Shown: one piece after another, positions 171 through 62,880 of the stretch
Numbering within the stretch: position 1 is the stretch's first letter
Layout: the number at the start of each line of letters is the position of its first letter
Assembly: GCA_029964075.1 (NCBI GenBank)
Contig: CM057129.1
Coordinates: forward strand, 28,821,430-28,885,429
Reading direction: 5' to 3'
DNA: 64,000 nucleotides
From: Patiria pectinifera
Taxonomy: Eukaryota; Echinodermata; Asteroidea; Valvatida; Asterinidae
Notes under the pieces: model-generated
What the model saw: only the letters and a program-made list of their open reading frames with translations
What the model was told of the DNA's origin: nothing
The model's database searches: none
Made by a program: the position numbers and the translations under genes

Positions 171-1680
171 TTATCTGGAAACCCGATCAAGACGCCTACA
201 CACAAGTGTCATCTGCCGAGTGTCATCAGCAAAGAAGAGGAACTGGACACTGTGATGTCTGGCAATGTCACCTAATGGTAGTGTGTATGTTGAGAAGAAA
301 ACAGGACCCAGAAATGAGCCCTGTGGGACTCCGCAATCAGATTTAGTATCAGACTTAGTATCACCAAAAGACACTATTTGAGCTCTCTCTTCAAGGTACA
401 TGTACCGGCTTGATTCGTTGTTGAGCCAGGTGAGTGACGCCAAGCCTGTCGGAAAGACACTGCAGTAGAAGCTGGTGATCTACCATATCGAAGGCGGAAG
501 ATAAGTCAAGAAGAACCAGAAGAACCATCTGACAATTGTCGATGGCTTGAAGGATATTATTCCGACAAGAGCTGTCTCCACACAGTGCCCTTGTCTGTAT
601 GCTAACTGCCTATCCTCCAGGAGATTGTCGTCCTCTAAGTAACTTGTGAGTTGGCATAAGACAACTCTCCAGAACTTTGGAGACAAACGGCAGAGTTGAA
701 ACTGGTCTGTAACTGTACAACTATTGGGGATGAGGTTCTCTTTCTTCAAAAAAAGTGTCACATATGCCAAATTGTACTCTGTGGGCACCTCAGCAGTTTC
801 CAGCGAGGAATTAATGATGGAACTGATGCAGAGAGCAAAAGACATCGCCAAATGCTTCATCATCCATGTTGGAACTGGATCAAGTTGACAAGTCGTGTTA
901 GGAGATATGGCAATGATACCAACAATGTCGCCTATGGAGACAGGCTCAAATGTTGCTAAACTGGCAGAAACATTGGAATCTGGCTCAAATGTGGCTGCAA
1001 GCCCACTAGTTGAATCACAAACTATCTGGATCTTTACTACAAAGAGGACGCTAAATCTATTTGCCAGATCCAAGTTACTGGTGCTAGATGGTAAAGCAGC
1101 AGTCTTTGAGATGCTCAGGAGGTTCTGGAACATCTTGAATAATTGGTTTGGATCAATGGAACATTTCAATATTTTGGAATTCATGTATTCAATCTCAGCA
1201 TCATTGGTCATTAACCCCTTAAGGACGGGTGTAATGGGGGCATTCCTCCACACATAGAGCAAGTGGCCTGCATGACTGCACAGCCTTTGTGTGGTAGCGG
1301 GACTGCACAAAAGCAGCAGCTGTGGAACTACCCACTAGCCGTGAGCCACAGCGTACCACAGCTGGCAACTGCATTCCAATGAGGATTAGCGGCCGCGGCC
1401 ATGACAGCTTCCCGTGCGCATGGGGTTAATTTCAAATGTTGCGTTTTGCAACAAAGATGGTGCGATCTTCATGGGAATGTGACGCACGCCAATGCCTCTC
1501 AGCACACCTTACAACACGCTTGTAAGATCTAATGCGCTCCGAGTACCAAGGAATGTGCTGGCGGAGAGGAATGGATTTCACTGGTGGATGAGCATCCAAG
1601 ATTTCTCGAGACTTAGTGTTGTAGAGGTGGACTTTTTGAGATACGCCATCTATCGTATCTAATGAGAGAGAGGTGCGTAT
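171..1680 (-). mobile_element. Non-LTR retrotransposon (LINE, L2/CR1/jockey-like) relic, interrupted
   Basis: Minus-strand reading in order: YNTKSREILDAHPPVKS and PWYSERIRSYKRVVRCAERH (about 1640-1450; typical of the linker between endonuclease and RT), then RT fingers (1210-480), LLDLSSAFDMVDHQLLLQ (about 535-450, another frame), then GVPQGSFLGPVFFSTYTLPL and the catalytic FFADDT (about 340-240). Several frameshifts and a nested insertion break it. Endonuclease proper and both ends are missing, so it is a dead copy. Confidence 0.85.
1211..1429. mobile_element. Short TTAA-flanked insertion inside the LINE relic
   Basis: Sequence bounded by TTAACCCC and GGGGTTAA interrupts the LINE-derived reading. 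It is GC-richer than its surroundings and noncoding. The TTAA ends with short inverted CCCC/GGGG fit a piggyBac-type nonautonomous insertion. Confidence 0.55.
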
Positions 1681-1873
1681 ATCCTAAAAATACTGGATCA
1701 CTTAAAAAACTTTGTGAGAAAACTGCTTTCCTTCGCAGCAAACAATACAGTCTGTTATGAAAGGAAGCAGCGGGTTCTGTACCGGTATGTAGATACCTGT
1801 ACAGGTCGCAGGAGGGAAAACGGTTAAGTACATGTACATCGAGCAGTCCAATATACAGTAAATAATTATTCAG

Positions 1874-2579: not shown

Positions 2580-2712
2580 CTTCATAAGGTATGCAACCAT
2601 CAATACGGCCAAAGTGGCCCACAGGAATCCCATGATGATCATCATACCACCGACTGCCCGCCAGCCAGAGCTTGATGCGTTTGCTATTAGAACAATCCCA
2701 TTGTAAAATCCA
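2580..2712 (-). CDS. SCAMP: SCAMP alternative exon 8b (luminal loop and TM4)
   Basis: 133 bp, phase 2 in, phase 0 out, acceptor TTATGGTTAG after a poly-T tract, donor GTAACC. Encodes [40 protein letters not shown] and YLMK. It shares GGMMI.MG.LW and the helix end with 8a, and also carries a luminal-side sequon (N-A-S). Matches vertebrate CGWI...GIMMIIIAALFTASAV. Confidence 0.87.
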
Positions 2713-5700
2713 CTAACCATAAAAAAAAAACAGAAAAAAAAGAGAGCATGTACATGTCAAGTACTCAAGTCAGCAATTAAGACAGAATGCCAGTTGAGAA
2801 TGCCTGCTTTCAAGACTTCTCACAGGATTGGGGCTGTCCTAAATTTACTGTATTATACAAATAATGAATGTTTGTGAGTGCAATGGTAAGAATAATTTCA
2901 TGAGGTGACAGATGAAATGTTCCATTCCGCGAAGCCGAGTGGAATGGAACATTTCATCTGTCACCGAATGAAATTATTCTTTCCATTGCACGAACGTGAA
3001 ACTTTCATTATTTGTTTTATATAACGCCTGAATAAATCCTTGTCATCTGATTGGTTGACTTTTAATAGCCAATTTATTCAGATTAAAAACTGTTTGAAAG
3101 TTTGACAGGGAGGTTTTTCATATTTAATTTATGCAAACTGTTCAACAGGTTGAGAACCATTATATTTAAGCAATCTCGATTTAAAACAGCGCCACCGCCA
3201 GCAGCGATGACACCGTGCAATGGAAGTTCTATTCACCGTGCAATGAAACTTTCATTGTACTGTGCGTTGCACGCCGCGCGCGCGCGCTGTGCGTTGGGAC
3301 GAATAATTCAATAACATGTGATCCATGATCCACCAATCAGATGATGGGGATTTATTCAGGTGTTGTATAAACTCCAATATTCAACATCAACTGAAAATTC
3401 GAATTTTTCTGGCCGATCTGAATATTTGAGAACTAAAAAGAAATTCGCACATATATGTATACACACACGACTGTGATGTTATTTAATCGAAAAGTTGCAG
3501 TTTCTTATTGGCAGGTGCCACTTTTTTTGTTGACGGTAACTTTTGTCGACGGCGGTTTATTGTTCACATACTTTTTGTAGGTTGAAAACCCCTTTTACAG
3601 TTATAAAATAGTTACTGCAAAACACTCCAGCGCCCCATATCGTTCGCAGCACGCAAATTTCAACTGGTACACTTCTTCAAGCAAACTTTTTACCGGTGCA
3701 GTATGCTGCAGACGCAGTTCCAGCAGGCAGTTTCAAATATCCGATTATTTGGTCAAACACACTTCCAAGTAATCGAATCTTAAATTATTTGAAAATTGAC
3801 AGCCCTACCCAGGATCTCGTAGTTGTCTAAATTTGGTTTTTTTTTTGGTTGCTGCTTGCTTCCAAGTACGGTACGTACATCTAAACCAGATGTCTGCTCG
3901 ATGCCTGATGCTGTCATCTTAATGTTGTTCCTCTTGTGCACTAGGCTAATGTTGTGCATCGGGTCGGGTTGACCAGGCTCAACCGACCCCAAACATTATA
4001 GATAAAACAAATCCGAACCCAAATCTATTTGAACTCCCCAAATCAAACCAAACAGACTCAAACAGAAATTCAAGCAAAAACCGACCCAAACAACTGCATA
4101 TCTGCCTTGGGCAACTGTGTCCGTTTCTTGTGCCTCAACCTACCAGTGTCACATGAAAATTGTCGTCTCTCAGTAAAGAATCCTAACGTATGGTTACGGT
4201 GAAACACTGTAACTAACATGACCTACCGGTGTGCCCACACGGTATAGACAGTGCGTGATAGACTGCAAACCACATGCACGTTGGCGAGGTGGGTCGATGT
4301 TGGCTGCACTACTACATTTTGTAGGCACAGTAACTCTGTAGTAATGTTGTACCGTGTTGTTTTCGGTTTATTTCAGTTTATTTCGGGTATTTTACAAGGA
4401 GGCTTAACCGAACAGATCTGAGGTTGGGTCAGTTTCTGTTTCGGGTTTGCACAACATCATTGTGCACATCTGTTTTAAGTTGGTACATTTGCAGGGTTCT
4501 CCCCAAGATTTTTGCAAACCTGTGGGGGAAGTTTTGTTGTGATTCACCAACCTGCAAAGCCACGGCGTGGGGTTCGGGGCCCGCTTATCGGCATCAAGGG
4601 CTGAAAAATGTGATCGGCATTTTTGTCGGCGTATCGGGCCGCAATTCCAGCGTATCAGGCCGATACGCACGTTTGTACGTGGGGAGAACCCTGATATGTG
4701 AAATATGAACGCCGTACCAGCTTGTATGTGGTAAAACAAACGCAGACAAAAATGAGTGGAAAAAAAAGAAAATAAGAATAACCTGAAAAAAAATGACAGG
4801 TGTTTTGGCATGAGCCGAAACACCTTTTAAGCACATATTGGGAAATGATTAGCAGGAATTGCATGAAGTGGGGTGACTAATGTCTCTGTGATATAAAATG
4901 TCGCGAAGTGTCTGCTCGTGTAGCGCTCAGGGTGTCAAGAATGAAACTGACGCGTTGAAATGATGTACTGAAGACGGCATCTGTCCATCCCTTATGTGAT
5001 GAAGTATTGCAGCAGATCATTACCATTTTAAGGTACACAAGGATTATAAGGGCCAAGGCGCTCCATAGGCATCCCATGACAATCATCATCCCACCAACCG
5101 TCTTCATTGAGTAATTAGTTTTTGTTTTATCGGTCGCGTCCCCTGCCGATATCAGCCATATGCCGTTTACAATGCCGCTATCCATGAAAAAAGAAGACAA
5201 AGTCATATTTACATGTTCCTTAAGAATTTCATGTACACGCCAGTTAAGTGTTTCAACATTTTTAGAAGAAACAAATTTGCAACTTCCCCAGAATATCCTT
5301 TTGTTTGGCATGTTGGGGAGGAGGGAAACAGGGGGAGGTTTTATGACACAAAAAGGGAATGCATTTGCAATAATTTTCTGGGACTTAAACTTGCTCAAAT
5401 TTAAGTGTTCTAAAATATGCAAAGAGCACTGGAAGAATTAAACGTGGCTTCAACTCCAATCAGGGTATCAATGGTGCTCTGTTCTTAAGCAGGATACTTT
5501 GCAGTAACTACTTCCCTCTAATGGTGACTCGTGAGGGAGTTGGTCAGCGCAATTGATTAACTAATGGCAGGTCCAATATAAAGGGGACATAGGAGCCTCA
5601 TATTTTAAAGGGGGAACTTCATGGGTGACAAAGCTCTTTTTGTCTAGTCCAAAGTCTAATAGTACTGCAGATAGGTAATGGGATTGTACCTTTGATGATA

Positions 5701-8700
5701 CAAGCATGGCATTTGGCACACAGTCAGAGTGTGTCTTAAGCATCATCTGCGATGGCCCTATAGCCAAACATCTTTCTCATGACATACTCTGCGTGCCAAA
5801 TGTCAAGCTTGTATCATCAAAGGCACAATTTCCCCAAATATTTCCCCTATCTGCACAACTATAGGGGGGGGGGGCACAAGGGGGCACAAGGAGAGGGGTG
5901 GGGCACTAACTTTCTAACCCCTGTCTCCCATGCGTCAAGTGCCAAAGGTTGAACAACAGATTCTTTTGTAACAAACACACCAAGGACAATAAAGACAGAC
6001 AAATGTCCCGACGGACAAACAAACATCCTACCTGGAGCCCCATTGGTCTACTCCTATCGCTTGCACAACTGTGCAGAGGAACTGCGCAGCGAAGATGAAA
6101 AAGAACATGAAGAAATTGAAGGAACTATCACTCCTGCAAAAAGAGAGAGAAAAATTAAGAAATTTGAAGGAATTTGAGTATGATGGAACCCCTAATATAA
6201 TGCTCAAAGTTTCTTGTGCGGGGGCTTGTGCCTTGTTGAAATATAATTGAACAATCTGTATTTATATAAAGTCATAGGATTTGAATAACTTTTTTTGTTG
6301 AAAACTCACTTCCCTTTTGTCTTTCTTTCTTTGAAGAAACTGGTTTTAAACACGTGGCTGTGAATTTCCTCCAAGGGAGGACAATTTGTGCCCTCAAATT
6401 ACAGCAATAAATTGAGATTTCCTGGCGTGTTCGCACAAATATAGCAGCAGCAATGAACAGGAAATCAAGAGAATCATTTGGCACAAAGAGGTTTCCTTAT
6501 CTGATTTTTGTACTGACATTAGGTAATCATGATGTGGTCTTCTTGTGTGACATAGTATACAAATATTGAGTGGCTCAGAGTGAAACGGGAGGAAAATTAT
6601 CACAAGGTATAATCTGGACTTTTCCATTTCACGAGGCAAAGCCGACTGAACTGGAAAAGTTTTACCAAGCGATAATATTCCTCATATTTCACAATTTAAA
6701 GCCACTCAATATTTGTTTTATATAACTGACATATAGATCCTTGTCATTTGATATATTGGAACTTTTATTTCAATACAAATTTGGTGGAAAATTTATTTCT
6801 TTCTTCCAAACCACCCCTTCACAAAAATGAACCCAACTCTGTAACGCTGGCTCTTTGGAACAAACGCTGAACGCGCACACCAGCATGCATTTGCACACAA
6901 ATACCGCGTCACGGAACAAGCTTCAATCCTAACTGTTCAATAGTATTTCCCATTCCCCATGGACGAATGGGACTTTTTGAGCCCCAGCATGAATGGGAGC
7001 AATAACGAATGTCACGTGATGTTAGTTCCACCAATCAAATGACAAGGATCTGTATGTCAGTTATATAATACCAAAGTAATGACAGCAAAGTACCGATCCT
7101 TATAATAATGTGTGGTTGAGCATCACTCCTATGCTACACTGTGAATGTTGATGTAGGCATGTGTGCATTGTGCTGTGAATATGGAGAGCACTGATATGAT
7201 AACAGTTTTCCGAGGATGATTTGCACTGAATACGTTCCGGCTAAAGTGTCAACAAAGGACGGTGTGACAAAGTTCTACATAAATGGGATTGTTTGATTGG
7301 ATCAGATCTTTTTTTTTAACAATTCAAAAATTTTCAAGCAGTTTGACATTTCAAAAGAGGACTGAAACTGAAACTTAAAATCTGGCCCAATGTATCATTT
7401 TATCTAAAGAACTTTGCATGGTGTCCACTTTTGCTCGCACTATGCCAGACCTACATGTATGAATACATTACCTAAAGGCCTTGTACATCGGCCGATACCA
7501 GCAGATGAATGAACACGGCGTCCACAGGACAAAGAAGAGAATGGACAAGCCGAATGTAATGCCGCTATTTCCGCCGCTGCCAACGGCCAAGTACGACAGT
7601 GAGACGATCAAGTTGAGGAACAGGAAGAGGACGTACACTGCAGATGAGGATGGGATGACACAGACAAAAAAGAAACGGATAGAGCATGATCAATGGCCAT
7701 GTGTGGGATGATGTGTTGTGGGAATGTTGGTCCTAAATAGGCACTGATCCTAAGATGGCGACTATCCTCAGATGGGTGTGATTCTCAGATGAGCATGATT
7801 CACCTGAAGGCTCTGTACATGGGTCGGTACCAGCAGACGAATGAGCAAGGTGGCAGACAAGCCATGAAGAGAGCTGAGAGGCCGAGACACAGAGCGGCCC
7901 CCGAAACCACACCAATGGCTAGATAGCTCAGGCTGATGATGAAGTTAAGCAAAAGCAAGGCCGTGTAGACTTCAGTTTGGGAAAAGAAAAATATCAAGAC
8001 AGAAATAAGCAATAATAGGATGTTGGTTGCATGAGGTTTGGCAGTCTGGGCTCTGTTGACAGCATCCTCTTTGAAAATGACGACCCTGTTACATTCGCCC
8101 TTACAAAGGCGCTGGTGAGCCCTTATTTGAACCCTACATGTAACCTGAGCTCTCCTTAGTCACATGTGTTACCAATGACCAAGTGGCAACACTTCTACTG
8201 TACGTGTCATGTGTGCACAAGGAATGCTATGCATTGTCAAATATTTTTATCACTCGATTATTCTAACTTGGACTTGATTGAATGTTCAAATATTGGAACT
8301 GTGCTGATCAAGTTTACATGTAACATGATGCGCAAACCTAAACTGGCCGTTGATCAGGATTTGCACACGGAAATTGACAAAGAGCCTATTAATGTAATAT
8401 AAAGAACGGGCAGCAGAATGGCTGATATTGGACACTTGAAAAAAAGACAGTTTTCAAGTGAAGAAAAGTGGAGACACCTGCATCTCCACTATTACCCTGC
8501 TCAAAGTTCTTCAAACAAGAAATAAGGGAATTAATTGTAAGGATCTCTGCTCTGGCAGGGACAGGCTATGGGGACTGGAACATGGGTCTGAGATGTAAGC
8601 TAATGGCTGGATAATGAAGAAAGCAAAATGTTTAGAAGCAAAGCCTCGTACTTATGATACTCCGATATAAGCCTCGTCCCTGTCCGATATGGTCTTGCGG

Positions 8701-11700
8701 TTTGAATTTTATTCATCCACGTGGTTTGCTTTCTTGTATCGAAATATTACATCAAAAGGCAACATATTTTATAAAAATTTTGGACATGATGTACACCATG
8801 TACTCTAGGAACTCTCAATTTATTCAAATTTCCTTCAACTCTGCTCCCACATGACCCGAACCGGGAATCAAACTCAGGCCACAGCAGTGCGAGACAAGCA
8901 CTTGACACACTGCACCACCCGTGTCACCTTTCGCAATGTGTGACAGACTTGCGATGATATAATCGCAGCAAATGGTAAGAAATAAAAGGAACCGTGAGGT
9001 CAAGCTGGTGCATGGTTGCACATGATGACGATGTTTGCTCTTGGTGACCGCAATCGGGCATCAATGAGTTGTACCCTACCTGATAGCTTTGTAAAGGGGC
9101 CTGTACCAACAGACGAAGCCCATGCAGGTAAAGGCAGGGGCGAAAGCGATTGACAGGCCAAAGCACAGCGCATGGTTAAAGGTCCACCATACGCACAACC
9201 GAGCCATGCAACAAATAGCATTTAAGAGCATGCACACCATATAAACTGGATGGGGAAATAACAAGACCCAAGTTAGAATGGTGCCCAAGTTAAAATGTCT
9301 TCTTGCAACACTGTAGAAGCAACATGGCTTTGTCCCTCTTTAGTAAGCTGCTGAAAGGCAGAAATCATTCTTTATTCAAAATATCCATAAATTACAATGT
9401 AACAACTGTGATTCTTGAAAACAGATTTCACAATAAAAAACCGCTTCATTGAGCCCTGCTAAGTCACATTCTTGCAAGTCACATGTTGTTGCCAGAGTAC
9501 GCAGTAGCTGGGGCTTGTATCATCACTGGAACTGATTCACAAAAAAAAAAAAGTTCTACTTGCGTGTCCCTGCAAAATAAGAACTAAAGTAAAAAGAGCT
9601 TCTGAAAAGAACCGAGAAAACTCGACGTTTGGGACAGTATACTCTGTCAGTTGTCGGGAGACTGAGTGATTCTAACAATGAAGGGGTTGTTTTGTAGTAG
9701 AACTGAAAGTGTTGAAATCCCTCAGTCTTCTGACGACGGGCTGGGTATACTGTCTGTTACATGGTGCAATTGTTAACTTCAAATATTATCAGGAAGAAAA
9801 AGTACTTAAGTGAAAACAGCAAAGATGAACACTTTAAAGGTAATACAACATTTGCGAACATCAAAAAACAAAACTACATTTTGTACCAAATTATGATGAA
9901 ATACCTAACATTTGTACTTGGCTGTGAGTATATAATAGTCTCAAGCATCCTGTGAAATCATGGCACCCGGTGTGCTGTCATTTTCAAGAAAAATTGAATT
10001 TTGTATCAATTTCCAACGATGGTCAGCCAACCATCGTTGGAAAAAACTTGACTTTTTTTCAATTACATTGTACGTCCCCCAATTTACCAGATTTAGTTAG
10101 AGTCAACATTTTGTTTGCAATCAGTTACACACCATGTACGGGTGGAAGCCAACTAGTCTGGTTCTCCAACGTCTAAAAATTGGTTCATTTCGTCTAAAGT
10201 AGGTCAGGGGACTAGACTAGAAGAATAGCATTTTTTTCCTTGGTTTTTCCAGCATCTATGAACGCAAACTTTAAACAGGTCAGTGCAACAATATCATGTT
10301 AAATACTAACCCTCAAATCCATCCATCTCCGAAAATAATAGCAAAAGCAAATGTTGTATACTACCTTAACAGTTTATAGAATATACACAGAAACCTTCAA
10401 TTTATGGAATCATATCTGCCAAAGAGATTTCCTCTGCACTAACCCCATCTCCGCAATCATTCCAGTCGTGCCCGTTTAATCTGACTTAACAATTTAAAAA
10501 AAAGGACACGTCCTATCTAAAAGAAACAAAAAAACTGAGTGCTTGTTTTGAAACGCTGGCACTGGTTTCTAAACTGGCTATGCCACAACACTGGGCGGGT
10601 CACACAAAAATGGACTCAACACTAAGAAATTGCATCAATAGGCTTAAGACGTAATGACTTCACGCTTTGTTTACATGTACATGTGGGGTTTCCTATGAGA
10701 GCCAGGTGGGTTGGGTGTCTTCAGATCGATTAAAACTGTTACAAAATTGTTTACTCTTTGCAGTTGCAGAGTCCCAAGTTATAGAACACCAAATTCTTTT
10801 TTAAAACATAAAGTCTCACTAATATATATACCAAATGATTGTAAGGTGACAGTCCAACATGAAAAAGTAATAACATTTGGCACAAAATTATGTTGCTTAT
10901 TTGCTTCTTTTTCATTTGAATAATGAAAACTTCATTTGAAATCCAGAAACAATACTCACGGATCCAGATGAAATAGCCCATTTTGACGGTGCGCTGGAAC
11001 TCCAACGGAATGTCCACCGAGAAGTCTTGGTAGAAGCACGGCTTGACTGGGCAAAAACTAGGCAGCGGTGGCCAGTTGTTGACCCGAGCTGAAACACAAA
11101 ACAAACAAGTCATGCCATTATTGTAGTCATTTAGTAACCACATTTCTTATTATTGTATTTACTTTTTACTGTACAGGGTGAGTAAAAAAAAACCGAAACC
11201 CAAATGTTGGGACCATTGTTTTAGTGAAGTTCTGCATGTAGCACTTTCAAAATCTAGGATATGTAAGCCCAATTCATAAGCTTTCTTTTAGTACAAGAAT
11301 CATTCAAATCACTCATGCACTTATTAAGTTACGGATTTTTAAACACAACCGCCGTTTTAAGATTCTGTCCACAATCACAAAAAGTTCAGTGTTCTTTCAG
11401 CAAAACGAAAACAAATCACATAAGGATGAGTGTGAATTGTTTTTGTTTTGCTGAAAGAACGCAAACCTTTTTTGTGATCCGTGGACAGAACTTTAAACGG
11501 TGGTTGTGTTTACAATTCCGTAACTTATGTAAGATTTGAGGCTTTGCATGGTGGGGTATCGGTATCGTTTCGGTTTGCGGTAACACCATGTGGTAATAAC
11601 TACTGCTTAGAAGATATTAGTTCTGAAAAGAACTTGTCCTGCTTATTATCAACTTTGCTAAGTAGTTTTTTGTCTGACGATGACTAGAGCAGGCTAGTCG

Positions 11701-14700
11701 AAACATTGAGACCAAAGACAAGTTCGTAGAACTTACAGCAGGACTGTTCTTATCAGAACAAAAAACTACTTAGCAAAGTTGATAATAAGCAGGACAAGTT
11801 CTTTTCAGAACTAATATCTTCTAAGCAGTAGTTATTACCACATGGTGTTACCGCAAACCGAATTCCGTAACTTGAAAAGCACATGAGTGATTTGAATGAT
11901 TCTTGTACTACAACAAAGTTTATGAATTGGGCTTTTATATCCTAGATTTTCAAAGTGCTACATGCAGAACTTCACTAAAACAATAGTCCCGACATTTGGG
12001 TTTCGTTTTCTGACCCCTCCCTGTATTGTGTGACAGTACATGTAATTGAGGTAGTAGGCACTGATCTCTGCACTGAGTGGATAGTAGGTAGCAAAGTATG
12101 TCGGATACCATTTTGAGATGCTAAAAATGTATGCATCCACAAACAGCCATTTAATGTAGAAATTAGTTTGAATAATGTCCATACATAAATATGTCCTTGT
12201 CTAATAAGGCTTCCCATACATGTGTAAGGCTCGCGCTTAAACTTCCCTTTTCGTGCATGGACTGTTTAACCCTAACTCTCTAGCATGATTTACTAGGAAA
12301 AATACCATCCTGGCAAATTCCAACACTATATGGGAAACTGCACACACATATTTCTGACTTAGATTCTGGAGGTGTGCCAACCCAATGTAAAAGACTGACA
12401 GTTTAGGGGTACTGTACCCATCCTGACAGATTCCAACGAAATATGCCGTTGGGGTTTGATGGGTTGCGTTCTGTTAGGGTTAACGGTTACCACTAGGCTA
12501 TAACTGTGCTACAAGTACAAGCTAGCAGTTGGTACTTACTATTGTACTGTGTGGCTTGCATCTGCTGTTCCCGCCTCTGGAGTTCAGCTGCTTTCCTCTC
12601 GAGCTCCTCCTGTCGTCTCAAGATGTCTTCCTGGCCTGGAGGCGGGGCCTGTTGAAGGACATGACAATCAGAGGAAGTCACAATCAAGGAAAACACAACA
12701 ACTGGAATTAAGATGTGCAATTTATGTCGAATCATTCATGAGACAAACATGTGAATTCTGATGTACGATTTACATCGAATTGTTTATGAGACAAACATGT
12801 GAATTAAGATGTACCGGGGGGTACAATCTGAATCAAATCGTTCATGAGACCAATGCTGGCCCCTAATCACAATACACTCTTTGAATAACAGCTCATGGGG
12901 CTTTGAAAACTAACTTTGTGTGCAACTTCTCCTCAGGCTTCCAAATCATTTGATCGTTTAACCTTAATAACCACCCCAACCCTTCAAAATCCAACAGCAT
13001 GTTTTGTAGGAATCTGTTGGAGTGAGGACTGCCCTTATAAACTGATTATGCTTTACATGGGGTCATGCATGCCACCATAATTAGAGTCCAACAGTTTCAG
13101 TTGCCATATGATGTTGGACAATGTTGGACTTTGCAAGAGTGAGGAAGGATCCTAATGTAGTTAATCACTCAAAGACGCAAATATCCAAATGACATAACAT
13201 TTTCTAAACTTTGACCTTGTATCACCTGTTGGATGTTTCTGTTAAAATTTGAACCCATATTGAGCGGTCGCTCCAAAGTCAGGGACCTTAAACCTCTATA
13301 ATCTCAAACATGGTACAAAGCCCAAATTTAAAAAGTATTGCACAAAAAATAGCACCGGCCTACCCAAAACCAAACAGAGAATTGTTGTCCTTGGACATTT
13401 GAGCAAAGAAGCTATTTTATACAGGAACTTTTACTCACCGGTTGCGCTGCAGATACGGTGTATGGGGGTGGTGGCGGCTGGTCCATTGTGGGCTTCATGA
13501 CGGCTGGCTCTGTGGGTAGGGATACGACGGGGGTTGTCTTGGAATTGGTCTACGAGGGAAACAGAGAGAACATTGAATTATACACAGAAGAATGCACTGG
13601 CTTTTAGGCATCGCACATGATTCATAAGAATGATAGAGTTCACAAATACTTCAGTTTGTCTCAGTTTTAGAGCCTTATTTTAGTACTGTTCAATACATTT
13701 TCTTTTACTGTACATGTACATGTAGACAGTACCTGGTATTCAGTATGGATAACTTCTCAGTTTGTATGCTGTACATTACATCAAGAGGCTGTGGCCACCT
13801 TCATGTACGGTAGCCACACCACATTTACATGCTGAAATCTTGTGGCCTTCTTACACATTCCATTTTCATGGAAATCATACATGTACATGTATGCTGTGTA
13901 ATAGTACCCATCTAGTATCTCAACACGAGCTCTCCGTGTCATCAAATCAGTGCATTGCTGTATCATGTTACCCATACATGTATTAAAACACTTTGAACGT
14001 CTTGCAGTATATTACAATTTTTTTAATTACCAGTAACAGAATGAAAATGCAATATTTCAATTCCTGTTACTTGTTTATTGAAATTATTCAAATTCGCTTT
14101 TCACTCCACTCACTGAATTGTTTCCTTCTTAAAAGATATGCTCCATGGAGAGAACCACATACAATGTACGTAAACAATTTCTCACACTAATGGCTTAGAC
14201 TAGAAAATATTAAATAAACATGAACATATTGTACGACACTCCATGCATGTTAACATGTACGCATGTTGCAGACTGCAGCACTAATGTGATTAATATTACT
14301 GAATAGTACATGTACTGGACAGTAGGGGGTTTTCTCGACTAAGCTTACTAAGTAGCAACAATGGAGTTTTCCCATAGGCAAAGGGTATACGTGCGCCCCA
14401 TGCTACACTGGGAAATTTAATTTATCCTGTTTAATCTCCTTTACGCCTTTCCTGATTAAAATGATCCAGGGTTCAAATCCTGGACACGATCCTTTGGGAA
14501 ACAGGCTGTGTTTTTTTGTACTTAGAAAAGGGTTGGTCAGTGTAATGCCATCAGAATCAGGTTGGTTTTTCTGAGAGATTCATGAACATTTCATTGCACA
14601 TTAAACACATTCTTCTAAGGGCGCAGCACTATACTGCCATGACCTAAAAATCATGGGAAATTGTACTTGATCATTAGATAAATTATTGTTTGGAAATAAT

Positions 14701-17700
14701 AAAAACAAATTAAACAAAATTCGTCTGTTAAAACGCAATATAATTTTTTGGATTGATTATTGCAGTTTTGAAACACGTTCTCACAGTCAAATATCTTTGT
14801 TGTATCTTTGCTTTGTTACACACGCATCATGTTAGTATTTTTTTAACTTAAATTTGAGTCTATAAAAAAAAACGATCAATGAGATGTACCAGTATAATAA
14901 TATTTTTTAGGGGGAAAAACATGAATTTTTACATGTACAGGGTACAGTGAAATCTCAATAAGTCACACCTCAGGGGAAAGGGTTCCAAAGTCAAATTTTG
15001 AGTTAAGCAGAGTTTTGAGTTTAATGGATTTTCTTTTCAGCAACAATTGACGGGAATAAGTTCTTACTTTGAGTTACATGTACAAGGGTTTTCCAGTTTT
15101 GACTTATCGAGAATTTACTGTAATTCTCAATGATTTGGTCATTGATGTGCGCATCTGCACTGACACACACACACACTAGTATGTTTGTTTATGGTGTACA
15201 GCGAGGATTTTCTTTTGTTCCTCTCCCTTTTCCTTTGTTTGTCCTTTTTTTTGCAACAGCTCTCATTGGTTTTGTACACGTTTTCTAATCGAGGTCGTCC
15301 TCGATTTGGTTCCTGTCCTCGATTCACCGATAATGTTGCACATGTGTGTCCTCGATTTACACCATAAACAAACGCACACCTTACTGTCATACACATGTAA
15401 TGTACATGACTAATGAAGTATTGTACGAAGGAAAAATATCCTTGGAGAAGTCTTGGAGAACTACATATGTACAGCAGAGATGAAACTGGCATATGGCAAA
15501 AAAATCGGAAAACAGGCCGAACAAAAATATGTGTCCGAAATCTGGGCCGCGCTGCAGTACATGTACATATACATGTATGCATACATGTACATGTACAATT
15601 TACACTTCATGCCCAATTTCCGGACACCAACTCCTGTCTTATTTTACGATGAAAAAATTGTTATATAATCAAATTTTGTGGGACACATTGTAAGAAAATC
15701 TGAAATTTCGTTGGAAAATTCAAAAAGTCGGATTTCCGATTAAAATCAGAAAAGTTTCATCTCTGGTACAGTATCAGAGAACAAAGGTAATGTGCTTCAC
15801 AATCGGTAGTCATATATGCACATGAACTTGTCAAACATGCAATGTTATTGTTAACCATGCCTGACTGATGAAATATCAAAATGTAAATTGTACGGTCCAT
15901 GAATGTCATAGGATTACATGCATGCCCTCCTACATTGTGTATAATCTGGCACTAACGCTCAACTACACACCATATGAAAGGAGGCGGGGGGAAATTGGAG
16001 GGTGACCATTTAATTTTGCTACACCAAACAACAAACTATGCTCCTGTGATCACCAAATCTAGCACAAGCGTTCACCACTACAAGAATCATGCTAAACAAA
16101 GAAATTGAATTGCATTTTTTTTTTAAGAAATGAAAAGAAATGAAAGGGAATGCTCCACCACCTGTGTATTGCGTTCCTCAAAGGGGTTGAACTCCTCCAG
16201 TCCCCTGGAGGAATTACTGGTTGCTTGCTGCACCGAGGGATCCTACAAGGAAAAACGGTACGGTAAAAAGAAATCAAGCAACATAAAACACAACGTCAAA
16301 TCACAAGGTATAACCAAAAAACGAATTTTGGAAGGGGGAGGGTAGAGGGTAAAAATAGACACAACAAATTTTGAACAAAACTGAACTGGCACAATTAATT
16401 TGCGCTGTTACATGCTATTAAGAATGCTCTTTCAATACAAAAGTTGACTTTGCAAATTAGGTAAAATGGGCAGTTAATGGATTGGATGGTAAATATCCTA
16501 TGTCTGACCATTATTGGTACATCCTCATGGGGTGGGGCTGGAGGGGAGGGGTGGAGGGGAGGGGCTGAAGGGGAAGGAGTGAAAGGGGTGGGGTTTGGGA
16601 ACCCACTTTTTTCAGAGCCCAACTCTGCTAACTGCAAAGCCGAAATGAGCAACCAAAGCAAAAAACAATGTCTGTAAGCAACACACAAATAATACCATAC
16701 CAGCGACACACGTCATTTACAAATGTACACATTGGATTAAAGTGAAATGTTCTTGTGCAAATCAACATACGTAGTTTTTGTTCCCAGTTTCATGTGAACA
16801 CCAGCATGGTCTCATAAATGAACCCTGGTGCAGAGGGTGAAATTACAACATCTTCCGACTATTTACCATATTTATCTGGAAAAGGATTTTTTTTCCCCAA
16901 GTCAAATTTAGCACTGCAAGTGTACCGTGTCAGCTCAGGGGTGTACATGTAATTTCAACCTCTGCCGATGCTTGCCATGTGCATGCACATGCATGATGTG
17001 ATGAGCCATGTCTGAAATCACAGACAAGCTGAATGCAATCACCCCAACCCTAGCCTGCTGAATCCCATATGAGACTCCCATACCCACAGCAGGCAGATAA
17101 TTTTTTCAGAGTTTGCTGAATGTTCAGTGAGCTCTGGTTATGTTGGCTAGCTGTTGGGTAAATTTGCACTCTGCAGGCCTTGTATTTCATATCTTTAATA
17201 GGCCTATTCTACATTCCTATTGTGCTGGATTATGCATGCTACTTGTAAATAGAGAGATGTACTGGAACTGTATGCAAAGGAGAGCTCTGTACAAATTTTT
17301 ATCTGCATTTGTATCAACATACATGTACACGTACACACTGTATTGACAAGAACCTTCTACAAGTACAAATGTACATGTACCAATAAATTATGACATTTAG
17401 GACATGCAATCACTGGCCCTACTGCATTATAAAAACAATGATCTCTCATATGATACATGGTACATGTACATGTACAGGTACGTGTACCAATACTACCATG
17501 GAAGAATCCCCACATTCCAAAATTTGTATCCTTGTGGAGACATTTCTTTGTTCCCGTGTAGTAAAGTGTTCAATTTTGAAAGTGAATTTTCAAAATGCTC
17601 TTATTTTAACCAGAATAAGTTTCCTGGGCTGAAATTTGGAATTAATATCCCTTTTCTAAAACTCTTCCATTTGCGACAAATAAACACACCTTGGAAATTC

Positions 17701-23700: not shown

Positions 23701-25870
23701 TGTATACTGTGCGTGCACAATCTGCATATCGCATAGAGCTGCATGAAAACACGTGGGCCCGTACGTGCGAGTGCAGCAATGACTGGTTCCCGCTGCGCCG
23801 CGTACTAAGTCCCAATGAAGGCATGATGAAAATGCGGTAACCAGTCAATGTAATAGTCGCGCGCGGTGCAATGCACTGCCGTACAGTGTTTTGCGTGCAG
23901 GCCGGACGGAATAGACATCGTAAAAATGCCAAGAAAACAACGATTGAGAAGGACGATCTTTGCAAGCTTATTCACAGAACTTGATCTCTCTTGTCTGTGT
24001 ATGTATTTCCCGTGTTCATGAATTTATTTTGAAGAAGTTTTGCTGGTATGTGAAGTGAAACGATGCAGCGTGTTTCACCGAAATCCTATACCGTAAAACG
24101 TGTCTCATTGCCGGCCCACCACACACAGTTCATCACAAACGCTCGTACTAGTGCGAAGTTCAGACGTTGTTAGCCAGTTTCTCGTCGTGACTAGCATTGT
24201 GTATATGGATACTTGACCTGCATTTTCCATTATTTTTAAGATTATTGACGGCAGATATTTTCGATGAAACTTAAGGCAAGTTTGTGTCATTTTGAGGCCA
24301 TTTTTGTATAGATTTCGTAGAGCAATTGAAATAGTTCAGGCTGAAACTTTCATATAATTTTAACGAATCTGAAAGCAAATATTCAGTTGCTTTATGTGCC
24401 GTTTATTAACTCTCCATTTTCCAAGTATAATCAAGTGATGAACCAACTGACAACTGTATTAAAAAATGAAAGCCTAAGCAGTAGTCAAACCTTTTATTAA
24501 TCTCCATTTAGTTAGTTTTTTAAAATAAATTTTACCTTGTCTTACAGTTACAAAAACAAAAAAAGTAATGCAACTTGAGCATATGTTATTATGCAAAAAC
24601 TAATAATAACGCAGCCCCTTGAATAAATCCTTATGTCAAAATAAAACAAGAACAATGGTAACCCGTCGTTTTATAATAATAATAATAATAATAACGGAGT
24701 CTTATATAGCGCACGTATCTACCAACAATTAGGTACTCAAGGCGCTGGAAATTATGTCAATTATTAAAGAAAGGTAAATAAAGTTGATGAGAAATATGAG
24801 ACCCATTATGTAGCACCTTATAATGGTTTACAAGGTGCTGCGGCGCACACTGCAGCCACTGCCAGAAACACCGGGGCAACCCCTTCTCTTAGCGATAAGT
24901 GTTACTGGGTTCTTTAACGTGCATTACACAACACACGGGACCTACGGCTTTACGTCCCATCCGAAGGACGAAGCAATAATGGTAAAGTGCCTTGCTCAAG
25001 AGCACAAGCACCATGTTCCCACGATCAGGATTCGAACCCATGCACCACGGCACACGAGTCGAACACCGTAACCATTGGACCACAGCGCATCCACTGTTTA
25101 TCCGTAGATTTTAAGGAGAGCGATTTGCTCTCCTCAAATATTTGAGGAGAGCGATTTATAGCTCTCCTGGATTTTCTTTAAATGAAGGACTGATAGCCGG
25201 AGGATTTTGCAGGATTCAGGCAGTGGTCACCTCTCCAAGGACCATATTCAAGAAATAATGGAGGAATTTGCAGGATTGAGGCTATATGCTATTTTTCCAT
25301 GAGGCCAATTGGAGGATTTTGCAGGATTGAGGCTACACCCTAGCAAAAAGGCCAAGGGAGTTAGGGTTAAAGAGAGTAGCCTAAGCGTGCTTCTATAAAC
25401 ATGATAATAAATAAACTACAAATTACAAGTGACAAATTGTACGTACAAACTAGTACAAGTTAGCCTACAATCACAAAAGTCTAAATAATACTGGCCTAGG
25501 CATATTGCATGCTAGGCATATTTGCTAGGCCTAGTGAAAATAAAAACTTGACATTTTATTATGACAAAGTTCTAGTCCGAACAAAGTTCTACATAATCGG
25601 GTGCATGTTCCAAGTCTGGCATTTATTTACGTAGGTAGACCAGTAAATTGGCCACATTTATGGGGCTATGCAGTCAGCAACTCAGCATGCACAATTCATT
25701 TTTCAATGCAATGGCCAAACCACACGCCTACTGCCTGACGTACCACGTACGGCACCGCGCGCGGCGTACGCCGGTAAGACACGGCGGCGAACAACGGCAG
25801 CGGCAACACTCACCTGAAAAGGATTGGCGGCCTCGGGATCAGCAAATGGGTTGCTGTCGAAATCTGTCAT
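2580..25870 (-). CDS. SCAMP: SCAMP gene (secretory carrier membrane protein, SCAMP1/2/3 type), 3'-incomplete, with two duplicated-exon clusters
   Basis: Four-TM tetraspan protein of recycling and post-Golgi vesicles that acts in endocytic recycling and exocytosis. Exons in transcript order: 25870-25814, 16242-16162, 13549-13439, 12648-12540, 11088-10960, one of three (9245-9080, 7969-7804, 7637-7472), 6133-6032, then one of two (5177-5024 or 2712-2580). All junctions are GT-AG and all phases match. NPF motifs at residues 7-9, 16-18 and 38-40 (EH-domain ligands) are followed by a Pro-rich PPPPPY, a Glu/Arg/Gln coiled coil (about 90-115), the WPPLP and [12 protein letters not shown] signatures, then TM1-TM4 with the E peptide CWYRPxYKAFR between TM2 and TM3. 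The assembled part is 303 or 296 residues. The usual C-terminal tail (HxLYRxTGASF in vertebrates) is not found down to base 1 and must lie left of the window. The N-terminal features place it with the long SCAMPs 1-3, not SCAMP4/5. Confidence 0.93.
2853..3370. mobile_element. Hairpin MITE family B copy 1
   Basis: A large palindrome (2855-3015, arms starting ACAAATAATGAATG, loop around CGCGAAGCCGAGTGG) joins a second inverted pair (3019-3058 and 3330-3370, TATAACGCCTGAATAAATCC and its near complement). Related copies lie at 6555-7069 and 57851-58177. It sits between SCAMP exons 8a and 8b. Confidence 0.75.
4492..4693. mobile_element. Short TIR element (CAGGGTTCTCCCC)
   Basis: About 200 bp with inverted ends CAGGGTTCTCCCCA and GGGGAGAACCCTG. 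GC-richer interior with no transposase. No convincing target-site duplication. Confidence 0.6.
5024..5177 (-). CDS. SCAMP: SCAMP alternative exon 8a (luminal loop and TM4)
   Basis: 154 bp, phase 2 in, phase 0 out, acceptor CATGGATAG, donor GTAATG. Encodes [40 protein letters not shown] and [11 protein letters not shown]. It is homologous to 8b but seven codons longer in the loop. An N-Y-S sequon lies in the predicted luminal loop. Reading through the donor would continue open for about 50 codons, so an unspliced C-terminus cannot be excluded. Confidence 0.85.
5660..5866. repeat. Hairpin element in SCAMP intron 7
   Basis: Arms around CCTTTGATGATACAAGC (5690-5732) and its complement (5779-5827) pair over about 40 bp, with weaker outer pairing (CTGCAGATAGG / CCTATCTGCA). 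Probably a MITE. A G-rich run follows at 5868. Confidence 0.6.
6032..6133 (-). CDS. SCAMP: SCAMP exon 7 (TM3)
   Basis: 102 bp, phase 2 in and 2 out, acceptor CTCCTGCAG reversed reading as GCAG, donor GTAGGA. Encodes [20 protein letters not shown] and [14 protein letters not shown], matching vertebrate [13 protein letters not shown]...Q...GxxxWG. Constitutive exon between the two duplicated sets. Confidence 0.95.
6555..7069. mobile_element. Hairpin MITE family B copy 2
   Basis: Same architecture as the copy at 2853: outer palindrome ACAAATATTGAGTGGCT / AGCCACTCAATATTTGT (6559-6717) and a second inverted pair TATAACTGACATATAGATCC / GGATCTGTATGTCAGTTATA. Arms match within the copy but differ in sequence from copy 1. 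Lies in the intron between exon 6c and exon 7. Confidence 0.72.
7472..7637 (-). CDS. SCAMP: SCAMP alternative exon 6c (TM1-TM2 and E peptide), most canonical copy
   Basis: 166 bp, same phases as 6a and 6b, acceptor CATCTGCAG, donor GTAATG. Encodes [20 protein letters not shown], a Gly/Ser-rich luminal loop, [20 protein letters not shown] and RPMYKAFR. This copy is nearest to vertebrate SCAMPs (FGLSILW...[11 protein letters not shown]). The intron separating it from 6b is only 166 bp. Confidence 0.92.
7804..7969 (-). CDS. SCAMP: SCAMP alternative exon 6b (TM1-TM2 and E peptide)
   Basis: 166 bp, same phases as 6a and 6c, acceptor CAAACTGAAG, donor GTGAAT. Encodes [20 protein letters not shown], then a short luminal loop, [20 protein letters not shown] and RPMYRAFR. 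Similar to 6c over most of the helices, with Arg for Lys in the E peptide ([11 protein letters not shown]). Confidence 0.9.
7970..9079. other. SCAMP intron between alternative exons 6a and 6b
   Basis: 1.1 kb without recognisable repeat or coding signature. In a mutually exclusive cluster this is where competing splice or docking elements would be sought. Confidence 0.5.
9080..9245 (-). CDS. SCAMP: SCAMP alternative exon 6a (TM1-TM2 and E peptide), Cys-rich divergent copy
   Basis: 166 bp, phase 1 in (completes Leu), phase 2 out (AG of Arg), acceptor CCCATCCAG, donor GTAGGG. Encodes [20 protein letters not shown], a loop, then [20 protein letters not shown] and RPLYKAIR. It aligns without gaps in length to 6b and 6c. 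It keeps FGLS and CWYRPxYKA but is rich in Cys and Trp and has Ile for the conserved Phe at the end of the E peptide. Open through its length with intact splice sites, so it is probably functional and not a decayed copy. Confidence 0.87.
9834..10369. mobile_element. MITE family A copy 2
   Basis: Ends TTAAAGGTAATACAACATTTG and CAAATGTTGTATACTACCTTAA; core palindrome 10013-10040 (CCAACGATGGTCAG / CCAACCATCGTTGG). In SCAMP intron 5. Confidence 0.78.
10960..11088 (-). CDS. SCAMP: SCAMP exon 5 (WPPLP / CFYQDF block)
   Basis: 129 bp, phase 1 in, phase 1 out, acceptor GTTTCAG, donor GTGAGT. Encodes [20 protein letters not shown], then [20 protein letters not shown]: the most conserved cytosolic SCAMP segment and the start of TM1. 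It is the constitutive upstream partner of the triplicated exon 6 set. Confidence 0.96.
11174..12023. mobile_element. Nonautonomous element with about 165-bp terminal inverted repeats and nested palindromes
   Basis: Outer arms (about 11174-11340 and 11868-12023) both contain TTTTAGTGAAGTTCTGCATG and TTGAATGATTCTTGTACTA-type sequence in opposite orientation; ends CAGGG/CCCTG are flanked by TA. Inside are two more inverted pairs: 11347-11505 (TTCTGTCCAC / GTGGACAGAA) and 11559-11671 with 11759-11868 (GGTTTGCGGTAACACCATGTG). No transposase ORF. Confidence 0.75.
12540..12648 (-). CDS. SCAMP: SCAMP exon 4 (coiled coil)
   Basis: 109 bp, phase 0 in, phase 1 out, acceptor TTCAACAG, donor GTAAGT. Encodes [18 protein letters not shown] and a following QRREQQMQ run, the cytosolic amphipathic helix of SCAMPs (compare LLRQQEELDRKAAELERKE in SCAMP2). 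Confidence 0.93.
13439..13549 (-). CDS. SCAMP: SCAMP exon 3 (proline-rich linker)
   Basis: 37 codons, phase 0 at both ends, acceptor CTCGTAG, donor GTGAGT. Low-complexity Thr/Pro linker ending in [22 protein letters not shown] contains a PPxY-type sequence that could bind WW domains, as suggested for SCAMP3. Confidence 0.88.
13550..16161. other. SCAMP intron 2
   Basis: AT-rich intron with scattered ACATGTAC microsatellite patches (about 13710, 13880, 15560). No supported coding or RNA feature. Confidence 0.5.
16162..16242 (-). CDS. SCAMP: SCAMP exon 2 (NPF motif 3)
   Basis: 27 codons, phase 0 at both ends, acceptor TTGTAG, donor GTGGTG. Starts DPSVQQ and carries [10 protein letters not shown], matching the SCAMP2 block DPSVTQ...LAEFNPF. 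It lies 9.6 kb downstream of exon 1. Confidence 0.93.
17847..17946. repeat. 50-bp perfect tandem duplication
   Basis: The unit starting CCATGCCTGTACTAGCACAT occurs twice back to back (17847-17896 and 17897-17946) with no visible difference, implying a recent duplication. Confidence 0.9.
18060..18290. repeat. Degenerate GTACAT/ACATGT satellite
   Basis: Irregular runs of the self-complementary hexamer TGTACA and ACATGT with interspersed GTACGTACA. Both strands give spurious Tyr/Cys/Thr-rich reading frames. Confidence 0.85.
18535..18899. mobile_element. Harbinger-like MITE (TAA target duplication)
   Basis: Inverted ends GGCCAAAAAAAAAAGTCTCC and GGAGATTTTTTTTTTTGGCC, flanked on both sides by TAA. 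CpG-rich inner parts (GCGACGCG) in both arms. The 3-bp TAA duplication and GGCC ends fit PIF/Harbinger elements. Confidence 0.7.
20044..20212. mobile_element. MITE family A half-copy
   Basis: Begins inside the core palindrome (GTCGGCCGACCAGCGTTGG) and runs to the terminal CTTCCCTTTAA. The left half is absent, so it is a truncated copy. Confidence 0.75.
23010..23128. repeat. Short hairpin repeat
   Basis: Arms CCCCTTTCAGACTT and AAGTCTGAAAAAGGGG, extended by TTTTGTGTAATTTC / GAAATTACACAAAA. Confidence 0.65.
24674..25095 (-). mobile_element. tRNA-derived SINE with (TTA)n tail
   Basis: Minus strand: A-box-like TGGTCCAATGG and B-box GGTTCGAATCC (25075-25020) form the tRNA head. The body contains GAGCAAGGCACTTTACC and GGACGTAAAGCCGTAGGTCC. 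It ends GCGCTATATAAGACTCCG followed by (TTA)n at 24674-24695. Lies about 0.8 kb inside the SCAMP gene. Confidence 0.85.
25814..25870 (-). CDS. SCAMP: SCAMP exon 1 (start codon, NPF motifs 1 and 2)
   Basis: Encodes [19 protein letters not shown], very close to the SCAMP1 and SCAMP2 N-termini. The ATG is at 25870-25868. The exon ends in CAG followed by GTGAGT, phase 0. It holds two NPF motifs for EH-domain proteins. Confidence 0.95.
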
Positions 25871-49232: not shown

Positions 49233-49329
49233 CAGATAACAGCAGACTGGATATCAGAACATAATGACTCCTTTGTGTACTTTGAAATGGATCAGGTGTT
49301 TTGTGCTTAGCTGATGTTATATATTCAGT

Positions 49330-49829
49330 NNNNNNNNNNNNNNNNNNNNNNNNNNNNNNNNNNNNNNNNNNNNNNNNNNNNNNNNNNNNNNNNNNNNNNN
49401 NNNNNNNNNNNNNNNNNNNNNNNNNNNNNNNNNNNNNNNNNNNNNNNNNNNNNNNNNNNNNNNNNNNNNNNNNNNNNNNNNNNNNNNNNNNNNNNNNNNN
49501 NNNNNNNNNNNNNNNNNNNNNNNNNNNNNNNNNNNNNNNNNNNNNNNNNNNNNNNNNNNNNNNNNNNNNNNNNNNNNNNNNNNNNNNNNNNNNNNNNNNN
49601 NNNNNNNNNNNNNNNNNNNNNNNNNNNNNNNNNNNNNNNNNNNNNNNNNNNNNNNNNNNNNNNNNNNNNNNNNNNNNNNNNNNNNNNNNNNNNNNNNNNN
49701 NNNNNNNNNNNNNNNNNNNNNNNNNNNNNNNNNNNNNNNNNNNNNNNNNNNNNNNNNNNNNNNNNNNNNNNNNNNNNNNNNNNNNNNNNNNNNNNNNNNN
49801 NNNNNNNNNNNNNNNNNNNNNNNNNNNNN
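49330..49829. other. Assembly gap, exactly 500 N
   Basis: A round-number N run, probably a placeholder of unknown true size; any reading across it is meaningless. Confidence 0.98.
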
Positions 49830-60480: not shown

Positions 60481-61107
60481 GATTCAAGATCATTACTTAC
60501 CCTAAACTTACCATGTCTTCTCTTTCTTGTAGAGTATTCACTGGGAGTGGATTTCAGCTGCTTCCCTTCCAAAATGGGGGTGTGGTGTGGATTCAATACC
60601 TCAGCTTCATCTTCAGGTTTCGCTTCAGGAAATTTTATATCACAAATGAGACGACCAAGGCTCTATATTATTTTGCTGAGCATCACGATGCTATGATATG
60701 AGGTTGGGACATGCATGATAGGCCTCAAAAGGATTATGTTGATGCTGAAGCCCAACTGGAAACAAAACCAAGGTTTCAAACACGCCTTTGACATGGGTGG
60801 TGTTTGGATGGGGAGAGGGGGGGCGTAGATGAGCAACTATCTGGCCTCAGCATGGTCCTCATCGCAGGGGTCAACTGCAGTCATCACTCGCAGTCTCTGC
60901 TTCTCAAATGTCTTTGGAATCAAGACTTTTTCCTAATTTTGCCATTTGTTTATTTTTTGGTGATCATCACGAAAACAGCATTCCAAGTGATGGCAAGATT
61001 ACCATATGCGAAGTTCACTAATTTTCCTCTGTATTGACTAACACGCCCCCAGATAGCAATTTCATGTCATCAAGGTCAATTTGAGCAGAGAGAAAATACA
61101 AGCATTT

Positions 61108-61196
61108 TCTTAGAAAACACTTAGAATTTTTCAGTCCACTCTCATAGGGTTTGTACACAGAGTGTTGAGTGAACTTCGTATATGGAAATCTTTCCC
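61108..61196 (+). repeat. Fragment related to the nested element at 29781-30206
   Basis: Shares GAAAACACTT, CTCATAGGGTTT and CGTATATGGAA(A/T)TCTTTCC in the same order as 30130-30206. Confidence 0.6.
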
Positions 61197-62880
61197 AAGT
61201 GATAAACTGGATGCTAAGTTTCTTCAATTAACTGTGGATAAACCCAACAATAGTTTTAGTGTTGATTAATATTGTAATAGTTTCAAATTTTCATTCCAAC
61301 TTCCTCCATTTATTTTTGTGGAGCAAAACCAACAGAAACCTAAACACGATCAATTCCTCTTATTCCTGAAAGTTTATCCCGATGTTTGACTTTAGATTTT
61401 AGTCCAAAGATCATTCCAGGTTTTCATTGTAATGCATGCCTTAATTTTATATTTGCATTTTTAATTGAAACTAAAAATACAATTTGTAGAACAAGGAAGC
61501 ACTTGGCTAAAAAAACCCACTAAAATTTTGCGCATCTGTTGTAACCGGTGATCATATTCCTTGCCCGACCTTCATAAATTTCATCTCCTGGGCAACAAAC
61601 TTTTAGTTGCTTTCATGTATCACTTTCACTTGGTTGTGATCATGAGATTTTTGCAGTGCCTCCAGTCATGTGACTGTCATTCTGGACTTTCATCAATGAT
61701 AACCAAAAATTTAATTAAATACGCAATATGATGTAACACGGTCACAATCCCTAGTCACGACGCAATCAACTGCCAATATTCGTTACCAATTCTTTCTTTT
61801 TTCCATTCACGAGGTAAAAAGCTTGGAAGACCAAAGTTCGAGTGAACTATTTTTTAGCCCTTAAATTTTAACTTTTTCAAAGTCTGTAATGCTCCACTGG
61901 CAGATAATAATTACACGCAGATATGAGCTCCGATATGGTTGACAATTTATAGCACGCAAGATAACTTCTCCGGGGTTAGAGTGTCAAACCACTTTATCAC
62001 TTACACGTCGACACTTGGTCAAAAGTCCGCTAATTATCTATCTGGTTCATCACATATTCATTGCATATACCTGTACTATACAAGAGTTACCCAAAGCATG
62101 CATGTACATGTACCTAAACATGCAACTCCATTTTAAAACTTTTTTTGTGAAATCCAAAGTGTCAAGTATTTTTAAGCAGAATTTCCTCAACCAGGCGAGT
62201 CAAGATTCCCACCGACATGGCAAGTGGAGGATGAGGCGTTTTTAGAACGTCCCTGTGCCCCATAATTGCGAAGGAACATGTTCACGCAAAACTATTTGAT
62301 TATCACTCAACTACTACAATCGTCTTTTTAGTTGACTGCGTTTTATGTACGTTATTTGATCAGCTGCAATTAAGTGATCAACGATTACATCATTTGTTGT
62401 TTCGTACTTTGGAATATATTTTTTTTGCAACTTCAATTTGTGAAGTTAGCTATGGAATTTTGTATCTGTTCAATTTAAAAACGAAACAAAAGCACACAAT
62501 TTTCAAATCAACACAAAACATATACACAAAACCAAACGGACAATTTTGACAAGCACCATCACAACAAAAAGGGACCAATGACAAAACGCTGGGTCCAATT
62601 GTGAGCCTGAAGATCTATATAGTTTTATCACCTTCTGAAGCACAATTCAGATTACACGTCATTCAAATTACTAGTGTCCACATGTAAATTCTGCACATGT
62701 ATTTCTAATTATTTCCCAAGGTTATGTGTGCCCACTATGTTTGCAAACATAAATCCGTAAATTCAACAAAATTGCTATTTATACACGTGTGTGGAATTAT
62801 CCTGTTATTGTTAATATTAATACGTTATTTTTTATAGACGGCGAGCTTCATAATTTTAATGCGCTATTATTATATCCGTG

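Follow-up and report, generated by a model that had tools for sequence, protein, structure and literature searches.

Two clusters of tandemly duplicated exons, very probably mutually exclusive, in a SCAMP gene of the starfish Patiria pectinifera

In this report, we describe a SCAMP gene of the starfish Patiria pectinifera which, as judged from sequence comparison, very probably carries tandemly duplicated exons of mutually exclusive use arranged in two clusters, namely three versions of exon 6 (6a, 6b, and 6c) and three versions of exon 8 (8a, 8b, and 8c). The stretch analyzed, referred to here as the window, comprises 64,000 nucleotides of contig CM057129.1 (C1:28821430-28885429); exons 8c and 9 were placed on C1 outside it. 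According to the proposed scheme, a transcript would combine one exon from each cluster with constant exons 1-5, 7, and 9, and up to nine four-helix proteins would arise. The choice of exon 6 would swap most of the first transmembrane segment (TM1), the first lumenal loop, TM2, and the cytoplasmic E peptide, and the choice of exon 8 would swap the second lumenal loop and TM4, such that both lumen-facing loops and three of the four helices would be exchanged by splicing and the cytoplasmic tails kept constant. The lumenal position assigned to these loops follows by analogy from the published layout of SCAMP2, in which the ends are cytoplasmic and the E peptide links helix 2 to helix 3 (PMC8721997). 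We infer that splicing in Patiria picks one exon per cluster; the choice may be regulated by cell type and may alter the recognition of cargo or partners within vesicle membranes.

The identity of the gene is supported by the top match of a homologue search, the RefSeq SCAMP1-like isoform X2 of Patiria miniata (P0001), which equals the 359-residue 6c+8c product at 357 of 359 positions, the only differences (positions 68 and 77) both lying in exon 3. This 6c+8c protein, from which 8a and 8b are absent, is the sole annotated Patiria isoform among the best 120 of 1770 matches, the set from which the relatives compared below were drawn. A SCAMP profile search of the genome (16 of 16 candidates scored) returned ten matches, all within two copies of one gene, and exons 5 and 7 also exceed the cut-off of the Pfam SCAMP family (PF04144; 27 bits). 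Translation downstream of exon 7 revealed the second cluster in the form of 8a and 8b, and the version present in isoform X2 was located beyond the window as 8c, so that exon 8 has three phase-matched copies. The duplicated exons measure 166/166/166 and 154/133/133 bp, and each is bounded by AG and GT, shares the phase of its cluster, and has a length one base above a multiple of 3. Each of the nine possible exon 6/exon 8 pairings has an open frame that ends at a single stop after 359 or 366 residues, and a hydropathy scan finds four hydrophobic segments in each, with the E peptide between the second and third. The positions of all exons are summarized in Table 1.

Table 1. Exons of the Patiria SCAMP gene (window positions unless prefixed by C1)
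Feature	Position	Strand	Length	Remarks
Exon 1, coding part	25814..25870	-		NPF motifs; identical in P0001
Exon 2	16162..16242	-	81 bp	
Exon 3	13439..13549	-	111 bp	
Exon 4	12540..12648	-	109 bp	
Exon 5	10960..11088	-	129 bp	TM1 start; donor (base 10960) ahead of the exon 6 cluster
Exon 6a	9080..9245	-	166 bp	TM1, loop 1, TM2, E peptide; most divergent copy
Exon 6b	7804..7969	-	166 bp	
Exon 6c	7472..7637	-	166 bp	Copy found in P. miniata isoform X2
Exon 7	6032..6133	-	102 bp	TM3; single copy in the Patiria gene
Exon 8a	5024..5177	-	154 bp	Long I-type; loop 2 and TM4; nearest by identity to Acanthaster X1 exon 8
Exon 8b	2580..2712	-	133 bp	Loop 2 and TM4; strongly divergent between the two gene copies
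Exon 8c	C1:28820786-28820654	-	133 bp	Little over 640 bases past window base 1, downstream side of the gene; version in P. miniata isoform X2
Exon 9	C1:28819413-28819222			Beyond the window

The exon 6 cluster had been proposed in an initial annotation made from the letters of the window, and its three minus-strand exons of 166 bp each are reproduced here to the base, together with the intact splice sites (AG before, GT after) and the single open frame claimed for every copy. The phase it described is also recovered, as each copy joined to exon 5 completes a Leu codon (C-TT, C-TC, or C-TG across the junction) followed by a Tyr codon, with CWYRP(L/M)Y(K/R)A(I/F) plus AG at its end. Retention of the SCAMP signature despite divergence, likewise claimed, agrees with Pfam scores of 35.9, 45.8, and 54.2 bits for 6a, 6b, and 6c (E = 1.1e-8, 1.1e-11, and 2.8e-14), all above the cut-off, and with the five exon 6 positions that never vary among 36 aligned SCAMP sequences, all five of which are kept in every copy. 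Because 13.5, 23.6, and 17.0% of shuffled versions of 6a, 6b, and 6c (20000 shuffles each) still remain open, an open frame alone constitutes weak evidence; equal length and phase, along with an identity between copies of 22, 23, and 30 of 54 residues and the preserved invariant positions, are beyond chance. The comparison of nonsynonymous with synonymous change, suggested earlier as a check on each copy, yields copy-versus-copy ratios of about 0.3, not near 1: the proportion of differing synonymous sites (pS) is 0.65 to 0.96, saturated or nearly so, that of nonsynonymous sites (pN) is 0.35 to 0.44, and the resulting ratio is 0.31 for 6b-6c and, with the synonymous distance (dS) set to 2, about 0.3 for the 6a pairs.

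The lengths of the duplicated exons also bear on their joint use, since with a remainder of 1 in every case any double inclusion shifts the reading frame, as had been argued for the 166-bp exons. When transcripts were computed with 8c, all four combinations with more than one exon 6 stop 331 to 545 nt ahead of the last junction, and skipping of exon 6 leads to a stop 158 nt ahead of it. A transcript that contains two copies of exon 6, or lacks this exon altogether, would be out of frame, stop early, and probably undergo decay. For exon 8, three of four multiple inclusions stop 116 to 124 nt ahead of the last junction. Exclusivity would most likely be enforced by regulated splice-site choice combined with decay of faulty exon 6 double inclusions, and a distant branch point could conceivably contribute. 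U12-type splicing is not suggested, given donors that read GT in a U2-like context (judged by eye), nor is steric blocking, given introns of 1110 and 166 nt between the exon 6 copies.

Gene models of other species provide further evidence for the exchange of these exons. We compared 24 same-species protein pairs in 16 groups, chosen by name among the 120 relatives; most are labelled as isoforms, except for Mytilus edulis, one member of the C. virginica pair, and Arion, and two Pelodytes matches, named SCAMP1 and SCAMP2, were excluded. Exon 6 is swapped in 5 of the 24 pairs (Branchiostoma belcheri, B. floridae, and Apostichopus japonicus), and exon 8 in 12 pairs from eight species (Diadema antillarum, B. 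floridae, Apostichopus, Crassostrea gigas, C. angulata, Saccostrea echinata, Ostrea edulis, and Octopus bimaculoides). In all swap pairs, the part following exon 8 is identical, and the part preceding exon 6 is identical apart from N-terminal inserts in some oyster pairs. In B. floridae, models X1 and X4 share exon 6 (57/57 residues) and differ in exon 8 (12/48 identical), X4 and X5 share exon 8 (40/40) and differ in exon 6 (29/58 identical), and the remaining 171, 34, and 57 residues are identical, such that the annotated models show three of the four exon 6/exon 8 combinations. Annotated models of this kind normally rest on RNA sequencing (RNA-seq). The pairs from S. purpuratus, Magallana, and Pristiophorus show N-terminal differences only, and the Arion pair differs throughout and probably represents two genes.

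Exons similar to several Patiria versions occur in gene models of other starfish. Exon 6 of Acanthaster X1 is 6c-like (71%), with a Capitella exon equally near 6c, and its exon 8 is nearest to 8a and 8b; of all rows, exon 6 of Asterias X2 has the highest identity to 6b (58%), and exon 8 of that model is nearest to 8c (60%). On the basis of these similarities, 6b-, 6c-, 8a/8b-, and 8c-like exons are represented in starfish gene models. The best exon 6 tree does not group 6b with Asterias and pairs it with a long amphioxus row (95/82). A search for relatives with the 8a region gave a single match, P0001, and is uninformative owing to its word filter and 90% clustering.

Exon 7, which is swapped in 9 of the 24 pairs, all from bivalves, has alternative versions in that group as well, to judge from the protein models. 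Three bivalve same-species pairs (P0032/P0059, P0044/P0045, and P0031/P0052) differ in exon 7 alone. An alignment shift was considered as a source of the oyster exon 7 differences and ruled out by pair comparison, the differences being real.

The only other genomic site found with these exons is a second whole-gene copy of the same layout, approximately 235 kb away. Between window positions 7000 and 26000, the two copies are distinguished by 457 of 13863 aligned sites outside the exons; exons 1 to 6c show 0/985 differences versus 53/2258 in unique flanks (p = 3.9e-9). Within the cluster, 6a-6c show 0/498 differences versus 12/766 in unique 150-bp flanks (p = 0.0024) or 145/4245 in all introns around it (p = 7.9e-8). 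In exons 8c, 7, and 9, only synonymous differences were found (1, 1, and 4, respectively). Homology between the copies, with unaligned stretches, extends to base 49327, close to a 500-N scaffold gap (49330-49829); for a 3-kb piece past this gap (60500-63500), matches elsewhere are limited to short repeats, and divergence between the copies is patchy (0.1 to 11% per kb). On these grounds, the left part of the window appears to be an unpurged haplotype contig of about C1:29.04-29.105 Mb and not a true second gene. Mutually exclusive use of the exon 6 copies, as initially proposed, is well supported although unproven, with phase, frame logic, signature residues, the constraint between haplotypes, and the swaps in amphioxus and sea cucumber speaking in its favor; the proposal was incomplete in that the exon 8 cluster had been missed.

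The second locus might alternatively indicate that the extra exons belong to other, broken SCAMP genes left by whole or partial gene duplication. This explanation is extremely improbable, since the whole gene is repeated there in the same order, all six alternative exons included, since no second exon 5, 7, or 9 is found within either gene copy at E below 0.001 (the second locus has weak partial matches, to exon 5 with E = 0.008 and to exon 9 with E = 0.05), and since the same exons are swapped in isoforms of relatives. It is contradicted by the layout and could be rescued only by an identical misassembly of both copies. An exon 6 cluster of two working exons, 6b and 6c, accompanied by a decaying or rarely used relic 6a is unlikely. 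In its favor, 6a has the lowest Pfam score of the three copies and changed residues at P203 and F217, in addition to the long branch and the lack of a found relative described below. Against decay, it keeps the exact length, phase, splice sites, CWYRPLYKA, and all five invariant residues, and is 41-43% identical to the other copies despite saturated synonymous sites. It also has 0/166 differences between the gene copies, which is not telling by itself because its flanks differ at just 4 of 300 sites.

Several observations weigh against two fully functional, mutually exclusive clusters of three. With respect to 6a, its end branch in the exon 6 tree is the longest (2.9), a region search for its relatives gave one candidate and no matches (a weak result, given the word filter and 90% clustering), and no 6a transcript or orthologue was found among the 120 best matches, and nothing was found that speaks for this copy beyond the present genome. 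At ten nearly invariant positions, 6a agrees with 6c at six; judged by the family residue, it scores seven of ten, since A177 is present in 6a but not in 6c. With respect to exon 8, neither 8a nor 8b, as single open frames, has a Pfam SCAMP match, and transcripts that join 8a to 8b, or skip exon 8, are frameshifted yet stop inside the last exon, such that decay is not expected to remove them. Moreover, constraint between the gene copies is absent from 8a and 8b (13/287 differences versus 26/598 in flanks). The four differing bases of 8a affect two codons and alter the amino acid in both, and in 8b (window 2580-2712 versus C1:29058493-29058634) nine codons differ, seven of them with amino-acid changes, in addition to a 9-bp indel in a predicted loop. 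Being as divergent as their flanks, with mostly amino-acid-changing differences, 8a and 8b may be under relaxed or diversifying selection. Lastly, docking/selector RNA pairing was not clearly above shuffled sequences in four scans of the exon 6 cluster of this one species (1, 9, 11, and 15 of 16 shuffles, respectively, did at least as well as the real sequence).

Three repeat features of the gene's introns were also observed. The 8b-8c intron contains, on the minus strand at window positions 171-1683, open frames that resemble pieces of a reverse transcriptase of the long interspersed nuclear element (LINE) type, as judged by eye from the translation, with no search made. Large nested inverted repeats occupy 11190-12009 in the exon 4-exon 5 intron (arms of 149 nt, 91% complementary, and 105 nt, 100% complementary), and pieces of dispersed repeats with many relatives in the genome lie in the 6a-6b intron (8226-8433 and 8836-8929).

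The age of the clusters was approached through exon trees, each including 50 of the 120 matches plus the window exons and, with 47 or 55 columns, weak. No decisive result came from any of seven approximately unbiased (AU) tests (p = 0.112 to 0.397), and the trees did not date the duplications, as the initial annotation had hoped to do by orthologue comparison. For exon 8, the groupings tested were all starfish forms (p = 0.261), the deuterostome I-type forms (p = 0.263), and the amphioxus forms (p = 0.112); for exon 6, they were 6a+6b+6c (p = 0.152), 6b+6c (p = 0.344), 6b+Asterias (p = 0.334), and all starfish forms (p = 0.397). Besides these tests, the idea that the starfish, amphioxus, and mollusc copies are convergent, independent duplications and not one ancient cluster is favored by the clustering of three of the four amphioxus exon 6 rows (96/78), by the grouping of mollusc exon 8 variants with lophotrochozoans, and by a report of tandem exon swaps convergent between vertebrates and invertebrates (PMC9741552). 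It is opposed by the I-type exon 8 group, in which amphioxus, urchins, sea cucumber, brittle star, and starfish, plus one long nemertean row, fall together (95/84) apart from the W-type forms of the same species; holding the nine deuterostome rows together without the nemertean is the I-type grouping that the AU test did not reject. We consider convergence a serious contender, if slightly the less probable side of the question, and on these sequences one old exon pair and repeated duplication are both plausible. More broadly, there is perhaps an even chance that in Bilateria the SCAMP membrane core (exons 6, 7, and 8) has long been a hot spot of mutually exclusive splicing, with invertebrates that have one gene gaining by splicing, through varied lumen-facing loops, what vertebrates gain from several SCAMP genes. 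Under this hot-spot interpretation, the swaps would involve exons 6 and 8 in starfish, sea cucumber, and amphioxus, exons 7 and 8 in bivalves, and exon 8 in Octopus.

We know of no partners assigned to the loops and helices of SCAMP proteins. An arrangement in which fixed cytoplasmic parts are combined with helices and loops exchanged in up to nine ways points to the helices and loops as the specific parts, and the nine predicted forms would offer natural variants for testing helix and loop specificity, as well as a case of invertebrate splicing to set against vertebrate gene duplication. The initial annotation knew of no report of such a cluster in SCAMP genes. None was found in the open-access literature, where no paper among the matches listed describes mutually exclusive or duplicated SCAMP exons (subscription papers and supplements being outside this scope), and SCAMP is not mentioned in the main text of two surveys of human tandem exons (PMC5740500, PMC9741552) or of a study of Esrp splicing in deuterostomes; swap isoforms are nevertheless already present in the public gene models of other species. 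Exon 6 of human SCAMP3 has been tried as a splicing-factor target, with no effect (PMC2715136).

The Patiria gene resembles other members of the SCAMP family (PF04144) in its NPF-containing N-terminus, four hydrophobic segments, CWYRPxYKA E peptide, and C-terminal VHSLYR...GASFEKAQ region, and differs from them in having three versions each of exons 6 and 8. Several mutually exclusive exon clusters within one gene have been described in human genes (PMC5740500) and in muscle myosin heavy chain (PMC3912159), which have in common with the present case tandem homologous exons of equal phase, expected exclusive use, and more than one cluster per gene; unlike in those genes, the Patiria clusters belong to a small vesicle protein, whose loops and membrane helices they would swap. 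The duplicated exon 5 of SNAP-25 is likewise a mutually exclusive exon in a vesicle-traffic gene (PMC2581893). Unlike the Patiria SCAMP gene, SNAP-25 has one cluster of two exons. To our knowledge, no membrane helix is swapped by the choice of SNAP-25 exon 5.

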